Shown here one piece after another: positions 2,023 through 42,483 of a stretch of 64,000 nucleotides of DNA (position 1 is the stretch's first letter; the number at the start of each line of letters is the position of its first letter). The notes beneath the pieces were generated by a model. That model was not told the DNA's origin. It searched no databases and saw nothing but the letters and a program-made list of their open reading frames with translations. Position numbers and translations under genes: made by a program. This DNA is from Selenomonas sp. oral taxon 920 (GTDB taxonomy: Bacteria > Bacillota > Negativicutes > Selenomonadales > Selenomonadaceae), in the NCBI RefSeq assembly GCF_001717585.1, contig NZ_CP017042.1:248001-312000 (forward strand), given 5' to 3'.

Positions 2023-3108
2023 TCACGTCTGCTGGTGCTGCATGGAGACAATCTGACAGTCGGGGCAGAACTCGATGTAGAGCGTGCCCTCCATATAGTC
2101 CGTCAGCGCATCCCAATGAATCTGCATGAGATACTTCATCGGCTGCCCGCAGTCGGGGCAGGTCGTGTATTCCCAGTCTTGCCACCAGAGCGCAAAGCCG
2201 CCGAGCGTGCAGACATCCTCGAAGCGTGCGCCGCAGAACAGAGGAACAGGCGTCTCGCCGAGGATGAGATCGTTTTCAAAAATCCTGACAAGCTCCTCTT
2301 CGATATACATGGTATCGCCCGCATCCTCGCAGGAAAGCACCTCGCTGCCGCCGTCGAGCGCATAGCGGCTCAGCCTCGGTCCCTCATACGAAACGCAGTT
2401 CGGACAGCAGGTCGCTGTGAGGATGCCGTCGATGCCGAGGAAGTGCAGACGCGCATCCCGTCCGTCGAGGACGAGCATATCCGCCATGCGGCTGCCGCAG
2501 TGCGGGCAGTGTTCCTCCCGTGGTCGGGCAATGCGGACGGGCGAGCGGCGGAGCTCTTCCTCCGATGCGGCGTGCACCAGCGTATAGCAGGTGTCGAAAT
2601 TCAGCGTGCGCCGTCGCCCCTCGCGGTCGAATGTCCAGCCGCCGCACTGCGCATAGACAGAGGGGGTGACGTGCAGCTTCCCGCGCCACGGGCGCGGATT
2701 GCGTTCGAGCGCAAGGAGTGCCGCAAGGGATTGGTCGTCTCCCTGCATACCGAGGCACATCATAAGCTCGTTCGCCTCATGTGCGGCATCCGTCTCCATC
2801 AGTGCTGCGATCAGTCCGTCCCGCACGTCCGTCGGTGCATGATAGTAGAGTGCCGAGGGCCAGAAGGAACGTGCCGCGAGTGCCGCGCGTGGGATCTCCG
2901 GCGCGAGCCGTCCGCGACAGCAGAGCAGATACCAGAAGTCATCGGGAACATCCTCGATCTGCGCGATGATCTCCTGCTCCTTTGCCGAGACCTCCTCGGG
3001 CGTCCATGAGAGTGCCGCACGGCGATTCGCCGCCGTCCTGCAGCGCCAGCAGAGTCCCTTGTAGCCGAGCTCCGTGCCGCAGTCGGGGCACTGGTAGGGC
3101 AGCGTCAT
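2023..3108 (-). CDS. zinc-ribbon protein, DUF1963-like C-terminus
   Basis: A 361-residue cytoplasmic protein with three pairs of cysteine knuckles: CPDCG with CWRC at residues 8-23, CPHCG with CPNC near 200-245, and CPDCG with CPDC near 318-352. They should bind structural zinc. The stretch GGFALWWQDWEY just before the last ribbon resembles the GG-x-P-x-W-x-Q signature of DUF1963/YwqG-type proteins. The middle (about 35-125) looks helical and repeat-like. It is the first gene of the operon that continues with the 143-aa protein and the SUFU protein. The function is unknown; ribosome site and start are clear. Confidence 0.7.
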   Translation of the reverse strand: MTLPYQCPDCGTELGYKGLCWRCRTAANRRAALSWTPEEVSAKEQEIIAQIEDVPDDFWYLLCCRGRLAPEIPRAALAARSFWPSALYYHAPTDVRDGLIAALMETDAAHEANELMMCLGMQGDDQSLAALLALERNPRPWRGKLHVTPSVYAQCGGWTFDREGRRRTLNFDTCYTLVHAASEEELRRSPVRIARPREEHCPHCGSRMADMLVLDGRDARLHFLGIDGILTATCCPNCVSYEGPRLSRYALDGGSEVLSCEDAGDTMYIEEELVRIFENDLILGETPVPLFCGARFEDVCTLGGFALWWQDWEYTTCPDCGQPMKYLMQIHWDALTDYMEGTLYIEFCPDCQIVSMQHQQT

Positions 3109-3247
3109 GATCGGCTCCTTTCCGTGATTCCTGTTGTGGGAATATTCATCTGTTTTATGATAGTATAGATGTATTGCGGCTTCAATAGGTCTTTTGGGTA
3201 AGATTGACCATCAAAAACAGTCTTGACATGGATCAAGGCAGTCCTTC
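3109..3247. other. intergenic gap, possible operon promoter
   Basis: This gap lies between the zinc-ribbon gene and the MATE remnant, both on the minus strand. A minus-strand TTGAAG-N17-TATCAT pair near 3165-3193 could be the promoter of the SUFU operon; the match is weak. Nothing else was recognised. Confidence 0.3.
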
Positions 3248-3667
3248 CTACAGATATCCGTATTGCTTCCGCTTCTGCCAAAGGAGCAGGAAGGTGAGCG
3301 ATGCGCCGAAGAAGTAGAGAATCGGGTGCAGGAAGGTCATGCCGAGCACGGCAATCATCGTGCTGAGAATGACGCAGACGAGGACGAGCAGGGAGAAATT
3401 TTCGCGTGCATGGCGATTTTCGCCCGCGCCGAGCTGCGCTGCAACGAGCGCACTCCCGCCCGTGCCGAGCATGGTTGCAAGCACAATCGTGAGCGGGATG
3501 AACGGCATGACGATGTTGATCGCCGACAGTCCATCCGTCCCGACGGCCTGCGCGACGAAGAAGCCGTCGACGATGAAGTTCACATTCATAAAGAGCTGTG
3601 ACACGATCATCGGCACGGCAAACGCGAGCAGTGTGCGGTAGGTGATGGGCTGGGATAGCTGCGCCAC
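3248..3667 (-). pseudogene. MATE family efflux transporter remnant (internal deletion)
   Basis: The GTG at 3667 sits behind a strong AAAGGAGGATGTTCC ribosome site. The 139 residues begin as a typical MATE Na+ or H+/drug antiporter (AFAVPMIVSQLFMNVNFIVD, then GTGGSALVAAQLGAGE), covering roughly the first three membrane helices. At about residue 123 the sequence jumps from HPILYFFGAS to TFLLLWQKRKQYGYL, which looks like the extreme C-terminus of the same family. MATE proteins are normally about 450 residues, so some 300 codons appear to have been lost in frame. The product is unlikely to transport anything. Start signals are intact, so the deletion may be recent. Confidence 0.7.
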
Positions 3668-3734
3668 GGAACATCCTCCTTTTTGTAGTTCTGCTATCCT
3701 AGCATAAAGCGGAACAGACGCGCAAGTGGGGAAT

Positions 3735-3763
3735 TTGCAAAATCCTGCCGCATTTGGTACACT
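3735..3763 (+). promoter_or_regulatory. predicted promoter of the menaquinone genes
   Basis: TTGCAA at 3735-3740, a 17-bp spacer and TACACT at 3758-3763, 33 bp before the mqnE start codon. The match to sigma-70-type boxes is moderate. Confidence 0.5.
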
Positions 3764-3796
3764 TGCGGGAGTGTCATTAAGGAGAGAATATCGTAC

Positions 3797-4894
3797 ATGA
3801 GTGATCGAAAGAAAGCCCGTGCCGCCGCCGAGCGCGGGGCGCGGCTGACGAGGGAGGATGCGCTCGCCCTCTACGAGGACAACGATCTCCTCGCGCTCGC
3901 CGCGTGGGCGCGTGCGGCGAAGGAGCGCGAGAGCGGGAAGAACGTCTACTATACGGTGAACCGCCACATCAATCTCACGAATATATGCAGTGCAAACTGT
4001 CCGCTCTGTGCGTTCCAGGTGGAGCAGGGGGATGCGCGCGGCTATATTATGGAAACGGATGATGTAGCTCGCGTGCTGGAACTGGCGAAAAATACGCCGC
4101 GCCTCACGGAAATCCATATCGTGAGTGCCCTGCATCCCGATCGTCCCTTCTCCTACTACGAGGGGGTCGTGCGGCAGGTGCGTGCGGCACTTCCGCACGC
4201 GGATATCAAGGCGTTCACGCCCGTGGAGGTTGTGAACTTTGCAAAGACGGAGGGGACTTCTGTCCGCGACATTCTGCGTACGCTGCAGGCGGCGGGACTG
4301 TCGTCCCTCCCCGGAGGTGGCGCAGAGATTCTGTCCGACCGCGTCCGCGCCATCATCTGCCCGAACAAGGCAACGCGTGCCGAGTGGCTCGACTGTATGC
4401 GTACGGCGCACGAACTCGGCATCCGCACAAATGCCTCCATGATGTACGGGCACATCGAGACGGTCGAGGAGCGCATCGACCACCTGCTTGCCCTGCGCGA
4501 GCTGCAGGATGAGACGGGCGGCTTTCAGGCATTCATGCTCTTTCCGTTTCATCCAGAGAACACGGCTCTCGGCGCGGAGCGGAAGCTCGCGCGCGTCGGC
4601 TCGTGGGAGGATATGAAGATGCTCGCACTCTCACGCCTTGTCCTCGACAATGTGGCACATTTCAAGGCGTTCTGGGTCATGCTGACGCAGCCCATCGCGC
4701 AGCTTGCCCTTGGCTTCGGTGCGGACGATCTCGACGGCACGATTGGGGAGGAGAAGATCATCCATGCGGCGGGCGCACAGACGCAGACGGGCATCACGCG
4801 ACGCGAACTCGACGCGATGATTCGCGAGGCGGGCTATGTGCCTGTGGAGCGTGACACGTTTTATCAGCCGATTGCGGCAGGGGAGGGCGCATGA
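3797..4894 (+). CDS. mqnE: aminofutalosine synthase MqnE
   Basis: Radical SAM enzyme of the futalosine menaquinone pathway; it joins the enolpyruvyl benzoate made by MqnA to SAM-derived adenosine to give 6-amino-6-deoxyfutalosine. The 365 residues are a normal length. The 4Fe-4S cysteines are C64, C68 and C71 in CSANCPLC. MqnE-type signatures follow: LSSLPGGGAEIL, MMYGHIETVEERIDHLL, LRELQDETGGFQAF, and a C-terminal ALGFGADDLDGT. These distinguish it from its sister MqnC downstream. Ribosome site AAGGAGAG. The stop overlaps the mqnC start (ATGA), implying coupled translation. MqnA and MqnD are not in the window. Confidence 0.93.
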   Translation: MSDRKKARAAAERGARLTREDALALYEDNDLLALAAWARAAKERESGKNVYYTVNRHINLTNICSANCPLCAFQVEQGDARGYIMETDDVARVLELAKNTPRLTEIHIVSALHPDRPFSYYEGVVRQVRAALPHADIKAFTPVEVVNFAKTEGTSVRDILRTLQAAGLSSLPGGGAEILSDRVRAIICPNKATRAEWLDCMRTAHELGIRTNASMMYGHIETVEERIDHLLALRELQDETGGFQAFMLFPFHPENTALGAERKLARVGSWEDMKMLALSRLVLDNVAHFKAFWVMLTQPIAQLALGFGADDLDGTIGEEKIIHAAGAQTQTGITRRELDAMIREAGYVPVERDTFYQPIAAGEGA

Positions 4895-15200: not shown

Positions 15201-15653
15201 TTGAATTTTTATACCTATGACTATATCACGGCGCACAGCCAGTTCGGCGATAATGTCTGGTATGTGCTTTCATTTCTCGCGCTCGCTGCGCTGCTCGTCG
15301 TGAGCGTGAAGGATCTGCGCAACCGCCTTGCAACGCGCTACCGCGACCTCATCGTCATTCTGTTTCTCACGGTCGCATTCCTCGGAGGAATGCAGTGGAA
15401 CGACTACAACCGCACGAAGAGCGATGTGGAGGCGACCTCACGTATGGCGCAGTTCCTCCACAGCCTCAGCGTGGATCTGGACGTGCCCGTGCAAAAAATC
15501 CGCACCAACTCGACGTATTTGAAACAGGGAATGCTCGTTGATGTGCAGGGGACGTTTTACGCGGTGACATTCAATGCGGACTTTACCTCGTTTCAGTACG
15601 AGCGGACGCATCTTCTGAACCGCGATGTGAAGATTGTGGACAAGGAGGACTGA
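15201..15653 (+). CDS. DUF3290 family membrane protein
   Basis: 150 residues starting with TTG at 15201, supported by an AAAAAGGAGGGG ribosome site. Two membrane helices (about 20-38 and 49-64) precede a C-terminal soluble domain (TYLKQGMLVDVQGTFYAVTF). DUF3290 proteins are regularly encoded next to DUF421 proteins, as here, and probably form a membrane pair of unknown function. The DUF421 gene starts 1 bp after its stop. Confidence 0.78.
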   Translation: MNFYTYDYITAHSQFGDNVWYVLSFLALAALLVVSVKDLRNRLATRYRDLIVILFLTVAFLGGMQWNDYNRTKSDVEATSRMAQFLHSLSVDLDVPVQKIRTNSTYLKQGMLVDVQGTFYAVTFNADFTSFQYERTHLLNRDVKIVDKED

Positions 15654-15654
15654 C

Positions 15655-16302
15655 ATGCTGATCTACTCTCTGATGATGGGCAAGCTCGCGCTCGGTCTCT
15701 TGTGTCTCATCGTCCAGATCAACCTGCTCGGCAAGGGCAACCTCGCGCCGAACTCCGCGACCGATCAGGTGCAGAACTACGTCCTCGGCGGCATCATCGG
15801 CGGCGTGATTTACAACAACGCTATATCGATTTTGGACTTTTTGCTCGTGCTGATCGCGTGGACACTGCTCGTACTGGTCCTGAAATATCTCAAGATGAAC
15901 AGCGGTGCGATCAAGGACTTCGTCGACGGCAGTCCCGCCGTGGTGATCGAGCGCGGCAAGATCCTGATGGATGAGTGTATGCGGCACGGAATGCTCGCGC
16001 ATGACATCATGCTTAAACTTCGTATGGCGGGGGTCTACTATGTAAAGGATGTAAAGCGTGCTGTGCTCGAGCCGAATGGACAGCTCACCGTTATCCAGTA
16101 CGGCGAGCAGAACGCCCGCTATCCGCTCATCCTCGACGGACAGGTGGACGAGGACATCCTCGAACTCATCGAAAAGGATCGCGTCTGGCTCAACGCCGAG
16201 CTGCGTGCGGCGGACTGCGCGGTGAAGGACATCTACATCGGTGAGTATAAGGATGGCGAGCTGATTGTCCATCCGTATGAGAAGATTGTGAGTACCAACT
16301 GA
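15655..16302 (+). CDS. DUF421 domain membrane protein (YetF-like)
   Basis: 215 residues from the ATG at 15655. Three hydrophobic helices lie in the first 85 residues, then a DUF421-type cytoplasmic domain with DGSPAVVIERGKILMDECMRHG and MLKLRMAGVYYVKDVKRAVLE. Close relatives (YetF, YrbG) are uncharacterised, with some linked to sporulation or stress in Bacillus. It is coupled to the DUF3290 gene. The operon ends at the unusual terminator beginning 5 bp later. Confidence 0.82.
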   Translation: MLIYSLMMGKLALGLLCLIVQINLLGKGNLAPNSATDQVQNYVLGGIIGGVIYNNAISILDFLLVLIAWTLLVLVLKYLKMNSGAIKDFVDGSPAVVIERGKILMDECMRHGMLAHDIMLKLRMAGVYYVKDVKRAVLEPNGQLTVIQYGEQNARYPLILDGQVDEDILELIEKDRVWLNAELRAADCAVKDIYIGEYKDGELIVHPYEKIVSTN

Positions 16303-16307
16303 AAAAT

Positions 16308-16404
16308 AAAAAGCTCCCGACGGCGGAAGTGACCTGACCCCCAAAAGTTAGACATAGAGGATCTAACTTTTGGGGTCAGGTCAGAAGCGGTCGGGAGCTT
16401 TTTT
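16308..16404. terminator. bidirectional terminator, interrupted by a palindromic insertion
   Basis: AAAAAGCTCCCGAC at 16308-16321 pairs with GTCGGGAGCTTTTTT at 16390-16404. It ends the DUF3290/DUF421 operon on one strand and the RND operon on the other. Without the insertion in its loop it would be a 14-bp stem with a 10-nt loop. Confidence 0.8.
16326..16387. mobile_element. 54-bp palindromic element with IS3-like ends, in a terminator loop
   Basis: TGACCTGACCCCC continuing to AAAAGTTAGA (16330-16352) is followed after 9 bp by its inverted copy (16362-16383), with one base missing. The outer sequence resembles terminal inverted repeats of IS3-family elements. The direct repeat GAAG flanks it on both sides (16326-16329 and 16384-16387), as a target duplication would. 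There is no room for a transposase, so it is either a miniature element or the joined ends left by internal deletion of an IS. Confidence 0.6.
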
Positions 16405-16415
16405 CTACGGGGGAA

Positions 16416-19400
16416 TTAGTTTTTCACCCGATATGCGACTGCATACATGACGGGCAGGACGAGCAGTGTCAGCACCGTTGCCACAATCAGTCCGCCGGCG
16501 ATGGCAACCGCCATGGGTCCCCAGAAGATGCTGCGCATGAGGGGGAGCATGCCGAGGATGGCGGCGGCGGCGGTGAGCATGATGGGGCGGAAGCGCAGGA
16601 CGGCGGAGTCGATGATGGCGTCCATGGGCTGCTCACTCGCCTCCTCATGCTTTTTGATCTGGTCGATGAGGATGACGGAGTTGCGGATGATCATGCCGAA
16701 GAGGGCGAGCACGCCGAGGTAGGCGACGAAGCCGAGTGCGGAGTCGGTGATGAGCATGGCAAACGCAACGCCGATCAGACCCATCGGTGCGGTGAGGAGG
16801 GTGAGCGTCATCTTGCCCATGCTGCCAAGCTGGAGCATGAGCAGGGTCATGATGATAAAGATCATGGCGGGCAGCGGCTGCATGAGGTAACCCATGGAGT
16901 CGGCGGAGTCCGCGAGCGCGCCCGCCGTCTCGATGGTCGTGCCGGCGGAGAGGCTGCGGCGCAGCTCCTCCGTCGCTTTGTAGATGCGCAGCGCGGCATC
17001 GTTGCCCTCGCCTTCTCTGACCTCCGCCTGTACCATGATGCTTGGGCGCAGGTTGTGCCGCTTGATAAAGCCATCCTCTGCGCCATAGGAAAGGTGGGCG
17101 ATCTGTGCGAGCGGAACGCTGCCGCCCGCTGCGGCAATCGGCAGATCGCCGAGGCGTTCGATGTTCGTGCGGTCGCGCTCGGCAAGGCGCAGGACAATGC
17201 CGATGGTGCGGTCGCCCGTGTAGAATTCTGCTGCCTGTGCGCCCGTCAGCTCGGTGTAGAGCATCTGCTTGACCGCCTTTGCACTGATCCCGTAGAGTTT
17301 CAGCTTGTCCTTGTCGAAGTCGATGCGGACGGTCTTGGATTTCTCCGTCCAGTCGAGATGGACATTCGTCGCGGCGGGATCGGCGGCGGTGATGGCGGCG
17401 ACCTCCTCGGCGACGCGGCGCACTTCGTCCGTCGTGGGCGCGGAGACGCGCAGCATGATGGGGAAGTCGGCGGGCGGTCCCGTCTGGATGTACTGCGTGG
17501 TGACGCGCACGCCCGAGAGCTCGTCGCTGCGTGCGGCGGCAATCATGGCGGAAAGCTCCTCACGCGCGGCGGTATCGTTCGCGGTGATGACAAACTGGGC
17601 GCTGTTCGCTGCGTCTGCCTTCGGATCGACGGTGAGGACGAAGCGGGGTGTGGAGCGTCCGATGTAGGCGGCGTAGTTTTGGATTTTGTCGCTATGCGCC
17701 GCAAGGAGGTCAGCGAGACGATTCGCCTCCGCCGCTGTCGCCTGCATGGAGGCACCCTGCGGCAGGGTCAGACGCACGAGCAGCTCGGGGCGCAGCGAGG
17801 GGGGGAAAAAGGTCTGTTTGATGTGCGGGAATGCCGCAAGGCTCACGGCAAAGAGGAGGACGGTGCCGACGAGGACGGCGGAGCGGTGTGCGAGAAATGT
17901 TGTGAGCACGCGGCGAAAGAGCCGATAGAATGGGCTCGTGTACGGATCGTGCACGCCCCCCTCCATTTTTTTGACGCGAATCAAATAATAGCCGAAGAGC
18001 GGCGCGACCATGACGGAGACGATCCAGCTGAGGATTAGGGAGATGCCGATGACGGGGAAGAGTGCGGCACAGAACTCGCTCGCCATGCCCTTGGAGAATG
18101 CGACGGGGATGAAGCCCGCGCAGGTAATGAGCGTGCCTGTGAGCATGGGTTTCGCCGTCTGGGTAAAGGCATAGCATGCCGCGTCAAAGCGTCCCATGCC
18201 GCGCTCGAGCTGGACGCTCATCATCTCGACGGCGATGATTGCATCGTCGACCAAGAGGCCAAGTGAGATAATCAGTGCGCCGAGGGAGACCTTGTGCAGA
18301 TCGATGCCGAGCATATACATGGCGACGAATGTGCCCGCGAGGACGAGCGGGATGCAGCCCGCGACGACGAGCCCCGTGCGCAGTCCGAGCGAGAGGAAGC
18401 TGACGGCGAGGACGATGAGGATCGCGAGTGCGAGCGTCTCGACAAAGTCGTGAATGGAGTGCTGCACGACGGCGGGCTGGTTCGACACCTCGTGCAGTTC
18501 TGCGCCGAGCGGGAGGTCCTGCTGAATCGCGGCGGTCAGTTTTTTGAGGTTTTCGCCGAGTGCGAGGATGTTGCCGCCTGCCTCCATCGAGACGGCGATG
18601 CCGACGGCGGGCGCACCGTTATACAACATCTGCGGCTCGGGCGGATCGACCGCCTTGCGCTCGACGCTTGCGATATCGCCGAGGCGGAACACCTTTCCGT
18701 TTGCCGCAATCGGGAGCGCACGGATGTCCTCGATGTTTTCAAACACACCCGAGGCGCGCAGCTGTACGGTGTCGCTCTCCGTCTCGATGCTGCCGCTTGT
18801 CGCCATCGCATCCTGTGCGGCGAGTGCGTCCGTGATGGCGGTCGGGGGATGCCGAGCTGTGCGAGCCGTTCGAGGGCGATCTCAACGTAGACGCGCTCGC
18901 TCTGTACGCCGATCAGCTCGACCTTTTGCACGCTCGGGACGGCGAGGATGCGGCGGCGGGCGTCCTCCGCCATGCTGCGCAGCTCCTCGCCGCTGTAGTC
19001 CGCGCCCGTGATGGCGTAGACTGAGCCGTACACGTCGTCGAAGCGGTCGTTGTAGAACGGCCCGTAGACCCCTGCGGGCAGGTCGCGCTTTACGTCCTCG
19101 CCGAAGTTCCGTACGTCGCGCCACGTCGGGCGAATCTCTCCCGCATCCACATCGTCGCGCAGCTGGACGTAGATCGTGGTCTGTCCCGCGCGTGTCTCAC
19201 TATGGATCTGTTTCAGCCCCGGGGTGTCCTGAAAACGCCGTTCGAGCTTGTCCGTGACCTGCTCCTGCATCTCCTCCGCGCTTGCGCCCGGCCATGCGGC
19301 GGAGATCACCATCTGGCGGATGGTAAAGGCGGGGTCCTCCATGCGCCCGAGTGCATTGTAGGCGAAGATGCCGCCGACGGCAAAGACGATGATGAAGTAC

Positions 19401-42351: not shown

Positions 42352-42374
42352 TGAAAAGACCTCCTTTGATATAG

Positions 42375-42401
42375 GGAAGCACTGATAAATTCAGCGATCC
42401 C
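42375..42401. repeat. intergenic palindrome family, copy 2
   Basis: GGAAGCACTGA-TAAAT-TCAGCGATCCC: the same 27-bp dyad as at 23011, with a few changes in each arm. It lies 24 bp upstream of the DcuC-like start. Confidence 0.6.
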
Positions 42402-42483
42402 ATAGAACCCAAAACGATATAAATTTCGACAAAAGGAAAAGGATTCCTTCCATTTATCGAAAAAGAAAGGGAGGATGCACAAG

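Follow-up and report, generated by a model that had tools for sequence, protein, structure and literature searches.

A 54-bp palindrome inside an intrinsic terminator of Selenomonas sp. oral taxon 920 is in all likelihood a relic of an IS3-family element. Comparison with related genomes shows that it was inserted into the loop of the terminator behind a yetF-like gene, where the element would have lodged harmlessly and would have lost its interior by deletion; its lineage is often found at the centre of terminator dyads. The copy itself is an ordinary relic. The interesting part is the targeting preference of the parent lineage: there is an excess of terminators among its insertion sites, the lineage as a whole seems to favour terminator dyads, and we infer that the target is chosen by structure. 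An IS-derived unit in a terminator loop had been proposed in an earlier note on this DNA; our analysis supports that proposal and extends it from one site to a lineage.

The palindrome and its parent element

The palindrome lies between two convergent genes. In the window (the whole stretch of DNA that was analysed, 64,000 nucleotides), it occupies positions 16330-16383 (G000:C1:264330 in the 2.44-Mb genome), within the stem of a terminator between a YetF-family (DUF421) gene on the forward strand (15634-16302), which ends just before the terminator, and an AcrB/AcrD/AcrF-type RND permease gene on the reverse strand (16416-18806). Read on the forward strand, the host terminator has 14-bp arms, AAAAAGCTCCCGAC (16308-16321, with the A-tract) and GTCGGGAGCTTTTT (16390-16403, the T-tract extending the feature to 16404), both assigned from sequence and fold and the left one also from empty orthologues. 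Copies of the direct repeat GAAG (16326-16329 and 16384-16387) flank the palindrome, whose arms measure 23 and 22 nt. The left arm, TGACCTGACCCCCAAAAGTTAGA (16330-16352), is an IRL-type IS end identical to the IRL of full-length copies such as L162. By sequence comparison, the 9-nt loop (16353-16361) is like the loop of the left-end hairpin in those copies. The right arm (16362-16383) has an IRL-like outer end (TGACCTG) and is one G shorter than in relatives. Sequence and fold thus bear out the 14-bp stem, the 22/23-bp inverted repeat and the GAAG repeats that the earlier note had described.

The nested structure is predicted to be very stable. For a 131-nt region the predicted energy is -68.2 kcal/mol, whereas shuffled versions average -32.9 (sd 3.6; z -9.8), and 0 of 200 shuffles matched its stability. 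Host stem and inner hairpin form together in the predicted fold. An Rfam scan of the window gave no match above gathering scores.

Orthologous sites without the palindrome carry an uninterrupted terminator. In G029 (L203) and G028 (L205) this terminator holds a single GAAG and reads CTCCCGACGGCGGAAGCGGTCGGGAG, and a third genome, G025 (L206), has an empty variant of it. The sister genome G032 (L190), 93% identical over the region of the window site, has a 55-bp palindrome between two GAAG copies. No palindrome follows yetF in G024, G027, G030, G031, G033, G035 and G036. The genus set comprises 14 genomes, our own (G000) included; 11 of the 13 others could be resolved, with the insert present in one (G032) and absent in ten, while the stretches from G026 and G034 contained no yetF. 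Filled sites with duplicated GAAG and empty sites with one GAAG together demonstrate that a unit with these ends was inserted into the loop with duplication of 4 bp, either once, in an ancestor shared by G000 and G032, or separately in the two. The relative lacking the 54 bp that the earlier note had named as proof of insertion is thus at hand in two genomes, and their terminators match what it had expected to remain after removal of the insert and one GAAG. Conservation at this site in distant species, which it had held against insertion, did not appear, G032 being the only carrier among the resolved genomes. The loops of the two orthologous solo palindromes, in G000 (window 16353-16361) and G032 (L176/L190), differ more than their flanks do.

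Empty sites were also found for other insertions, both of full-length copies and of solo palindromes, that is, two element ends without the interior. The full-length, 1517-bp copy L164 of G036 corresponds to an empty terminator in G032 (L225), where the flank is 94% identical and the loop differs. Solo L177 has empty orthologous terminators in G000, G029, G028 and G025, and solo L149 has them in, for example, G025, G031, G000 and G034, with varying loops. The filled L177 site has no target-site duplication (TSD) and lacks, next to the solo, four bases that the empty loop contains, so some events were other than plain duplication. Orthologue searches for L178, L162 and L157 met other terminators and diverged or repeated sequence, with no clean empty sites. 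Nor did any single locus turn out to carry a full-length copy in one genome and a solo palindrome in a second.

The relic shares its termini with full-length IS3-family elements. Its 23-bp end (at most three mismatches) occurs in 28 of the 189 genomes of the family, and a backwards control matched once. Full-length copies with these termini are present in the genus (six in G036 and one each in G028, G026, G024 and G031). They measure 1516-1518 bp in the genus, with boundaries set by hand, and 1427-1611 bp in other hosts, and several of those in the genus likewise lie in terminators. The family assignment rests on the transposase profile of the L162 copy, whose orfB (3623-4468) matches the NCBIfam IS3 transposase NF033516 at 244.4 bits (cut-off 160) and Pfam rve, rve_2 and HTH_21, an IS3-type DDE integrase core; orfA (3066-3626), which overlaps it by four bases, carries HTH_28 and HTH_Tnp_1. 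Terminal inverted repeats are of the form TG..CA, except in L169, which ends CC, and we take the ends to resemble those of IS150, a subgroup of IS3. A 3-bp TSD flanks 20 of the 27 full copies, and none was detected in the other seven. The search for full-length elements suggested in the earlier note has thus succeeded within the genus, so that its reading of the outer ends as IS3-like, and of the unit as an IS or its minimal derivative, holds; the lack of any related IS, which would have told against it, was not what we found. Right ends (e.g., L162:4466-4506) have a terminator-like hairpin of their own, AAAAAAGCGCAGGAAA..TTTCCCACGCTTT, directly after orfB. At C1:1729351 our genome also has a degraded left end, together with the beginning of an orfA-like frame.

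The left-end hairpin and the origin of solo palindromes

The left end of the element is itself a hairpin. All ten complete Selenomonadaceae copies, which were found by their end alone and not by the hairpin, have the same layout: IRL, a short loop, an inverted copy of the inner part of IRL, and then ATG. The same layout in 17 full copies from other hosts (Streptococcus, Enterococcus, bacilli and others) proves nothing in itself, since these 17 of the 27 were found with the hairpin as the search key. Nineteen Selenomonadaceae left ends were tried; for nine of these no right end was found, and L168 among them has no hairpin and L159 and L188 have shorter ones. A hairpin scan of the collection gave at least 112 stretches, the matches listed being mostly from Streptococcus and other Firmicutes. 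Four stretches with the hairpin pattern lie in viral contigs. The sequence around the hairpin is the same in L060 (Centipeda periodontii) and L017 (genus member G031), which places Centipeda periodontii in the genus set.

The left-end hairpin may act on translation of the transposase. The first 75 nt of six full copies fold at -26.9 to -35.0 kcal/mol. In the predicted fold, the GGGG or GGGGG before the ATG is paired; RNA that starts inside the hairpin cannot form it. In read-through RNA from the tail of a host gene, the hairpin would hide this putative orfA ribosome-binding site, and, to judge from the folds, transposase would therefore be kept low. Silencing of transposase on read-through is a device known for other IS elements.

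Solo palindromes are related to the left end in detail. Full-length copies start with a hairpin of about 47 nt, and about 46 of the 54 bp of the window relic can be aligned to it; the relic is thus more than two ends joined at random. In 24 of the 27 full copies, the motif TCTAACTTTT occurs both in the inner arm and where IRR borders the interior. Among the full copies listed, GGGG follows TCTAACTTTT without a gap at one of these two places and is set off by a single differing base at the other. At the window site, an IS3-family element would have inserted into the yetF terminator loop and duplicated GAAG. A deletion may then have removed its interior, running from the inner arm of the left hairpin (TCTAACTTTTGGGG..) to IRR, whose first 10 bp are the same. 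The product would be IRL, the left loop and IRR, about 55 bp in all, and later hairpin-templated correction could make the palindrome perfect. We regard deletion between inner arm and IRR as the likeliest route to the solos and, on balance, a probable one. Nearly precise excision of Tn10 likewise involves deletion between short repeats near the ends and leaves a palindromic remnant of about 50 bp; Tn10, however, is a composite of IS10, whereas the repeat here belongs to the left-end hairpin.

The outer ends of the solos add a requirement to this route. On manual reading, about 15 of the 31 solos have unlike ends, about 15 are symmetric and one is unclear. Unlike-ended solos of the Selenomonas set have an IRL-like end (TGACCTG) opposite an IRR-like end (TGTAGTG), and the window copy is among the symmetric (IRL/IRL) ones. 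Matching outer ends are not predicted by simple deletion, so an IRL-like IRR or later correction is needed. The right-end remnant L154 reads TGACCTG, that is, an IRR like IRL. The TSDs also weigh against our reading of the solos, as one of 3-4 bp is kept at only 11 of the 31, compared with 20 of the 27 full copies.

A rather unlikely alternative is that the solo palindrome is a mobile MITE, a 54-bp unit that a transposase supplied in trans moves between terminators. In form the unit is MITE-like, being short and non-autonomous with IS3-type ends and a TSD. The discrete size of the solos (52-56 bp in 31 of 31), the TSDs of 3-4 bp at 11 of the 31 and the like ends of about half of them are all consistent with mobility. 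Against it, solo loops mostly differ from one another and resemble full-length left ends, and an IS3 element that forms circles would hardly be as short as 54 bp. The second solo of our own genome (L003) lies in another terminator.

Terminators among the insertion sites

We compared 58 non-redundant sites with both boundaries (31 solo and 27 full; 34 from Selenomonadaceae and 24 from other records). The set leaves out L123 and L127 (same sites as L149 and L177), L175, L176 and L222 (orthologues of kept sites), L057 and other sites with N in the flanks, and second-strand duplicates of palindromes. It also excludes loci with one recognised end only (L005, L008, L154, L155, L158, L159, L160, L168, L179, L184-L188, L219 and L223). 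Only 24 sites come from the hairpin scan, the remaining stretches mostly having no second end or too little flank. Matches to the 23-bp end in G013, G042, G047, G048, G131, G154 and G161, and one pair in G132, likewise lie outside the set.

Flanks of the insertions pair with each other far more often than expected. In a flank-swap test, in which pairing of the own left and right flanks is set against pairing with the right flanks of other sites, the own pair beats every swap at 27 of the 58 sites (about 1 expected) and ranks within the top 5% at 32 (about 3 expected). Swapped flanks often share A- and T-tracts, so this test addresses the dyad and not composition. Both tracts are present at 40 of 58 sites. 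A left A-tract and a right T-tract of at least 4 each, with pairing of -12 kcal/mol or lower, characterise 28 of 58 sites versus 0.37% of window positions. Absolute pairing energy was rejected as a criterion: 62% of positions in this GC-rich window reach -12 kcal/mol, and tract criteria and flank swaps were used instead because energy alone does not discriminate. A looser fold criterion picked out 36 of 58 sites, a modest enrichment over the swaps (mean 21.9, maximum 28). The sites share no target sequence, with at most 0.43 bits at any of 30 flank positions.

The preference is not universal. Roughly half of the 58 sites fail the swap test, some copies have no clear hairpin (e.g., L152, L165, L172, L173, L180 and L039), and L166 is beside a terminator, not within one. 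An extra solo site outside the 58, L025 (orthologue L024), shows no pairing (rank 53 of 58).

Insertions at the best-pairing sites are centred. The junction is within 2 nt of the hairpin axis in 25 of the 32 top-5% sites (16 of 21 with a TSD and 9 of 11 without), and 48 of 65 TSD bases at the 21 sites with a TSD are unpaired in the rebuilt hairpin. Overall, 37 of 58 own sites are centred versus 26% of random swaps. As stand-alone proof, centring was discarded; 73% of best-pairing swaps are centred too, so it adds little beyond pairing.

Several further features of these sites were observed. L064, L073, L133 and L183 have no TSD, and the host stem reaches or nears the junction, which would suit loss of the loop and not its duplication. 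A terminator palindrome like GGGCTGTTGCACGAAGCTAGAAAACTTCGTGCAACAGCCC recurs in several genus genomes (L254, L255, L003, L156 and L170), and some solos and IS ends sit in it. An interspersed repeat of about 150 bp (about 90% identity; L157:2825-2975 and G000:C1:1163352-1163502) has at least 40 matches in 10 of 14 genus genomes and 45 in our own, with a weak partial match at window 42372-42403.

Selection could in principle produce such a pattern in the absence of targeting, if the element inserts widely and only intergenic copies at terminators survive; we consider this improbable. The position of the window copy between convergent genes would fit, as would the over-representation of pneumococcal IS elements between convergent genes (PMC3049150). 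The six G036 copies point both ways: L165 and L166 rank only 18 and 30 of 54-57 in the swap test, but these equal-length, presumably recent copies include two that rank first (L162 and L164) and two in the top 10% (L163 and L167). A control IS3-family element of our own genome (L285-L290, six copies of 1487 bp with other ends, TGCACTAGTCAACAAAAACTGGACA) also pairs somewhat, ranking 0, 1 and 5 of 63 at three sites, yet both tracts are present at 0 of its 6 sites versus the 40 of 58 here, a comparison with a small control. Furthermore, selection alone would not account for junctions close to the hairpin axis and TSDs that fall in the loop, an argument that the centring control weakens. "Least harm", the reason given in the earlier note, and active targeting are not fully separated by these data. 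Evolution of the nested hairpin in place, as an ordinary terminator or a regulatory one, can be set aside as highly implausible, since its single, very stable fold would suit this reading but empty orthologues with one GAAG contradict it, as do the same termini on full-length IS3 elements and the solos in unrelated terminators.

Known systems and consequences for termination

Insertion into palindromes has precedents, compared here with excerpts of the cited papers. IS1397 and ISKpn1, of the IS3 family, insert in palindromic units (REP), and their transposase is reported to set target choice (PMC1525189). They share with our lineage an IS3-family transposase and insertion into palindromes, but their target is a repeated host REP sequence, whereas here it is a dyad with A/T-tracts and no common sequence. 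The target of IS1272 in Staphylococcus is recognised as an inverted-repeat structure, not as a sequence (PMC5678879). IS1272 removes the target stem-loop without a TSD, while the elements studied here leave the stem in place and usually duplicate 3 bp; loss of the loop is hinted at in the few sites without a TSD described above (L064, L073, L133 and L183). Replacement of the stem-loop in the IS1272 manner was rejected for the window site, where the host stem is intact and GAAG is duplicated.

Other elements reach terminators by different means. Rho-independent terminators are the homing sites of group IIC (bacterial class C) introns (PMC3522654), but these introns are retroelements that insert downstream of the stem-loop, whereas ours are DDE transposons in its centre. 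Pneumococcal SPRITE, BOX and RUP are short, MITE-like hairpin repeats near gene ends, and SPRITE is terminator-like (PMC3049150); in that account SPRITE has no similarity to pneumococcal IS ends, while the palindrome here has IS3 ends. For ISSau2, a member of the IS150 subgroup, a term search of the main text (PMC5771124) returned no "terminator", "stem" or "hairpin". IS1447, an IS3 element of Firmicutes, is described for transcriptional slippage, with nothing on terminator targets in the available passages (PMC6211511). An IS3 lineage with terminator preference, a left-end hairpin and solo relics was not found in the literature covered, a scope that excludes ISfinder and most subscription papers. 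IS3 elements in palindrome loops were already known; what the present analysis adds is the generality of the apparent preference for terminators.

The consequences for the host are likely to be slight. Members of the lineage often insert in or close to the centre of a terminator dyad, and most of the short target duplication then falls in the loop. The relic may merely lengthen the terminator hairpin; as relic and host stem are predicted to fold together, termination would be expected to persist. Relatives in other bacteria, often at the hairpin centre, probably do little harm there. A more speculative reading, less likely than not, is that an IS3-type lineage of wide distribution recognises no sequence but the hairpin of the terminator, as a cruciform or single-stranded loop. 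Strand transfer across the loop would duplicate it (3-4 bp) or occasionally lose it, and the left-end hairpin would take over or extend termination. Insertion would then be self-healing, and relics would persist as nested terminators.

In these elements we have a concrete case, open to test, of a DDE transposon that may pick its target by a structural dyad and find a safe place in intrinsic terminators. Terminators that are nested and unusually long could, as a class, be scars of such transposons. The left-end hairpin points to a simple means by which an element in the transcribed tails of genes could keep its transposase silent.
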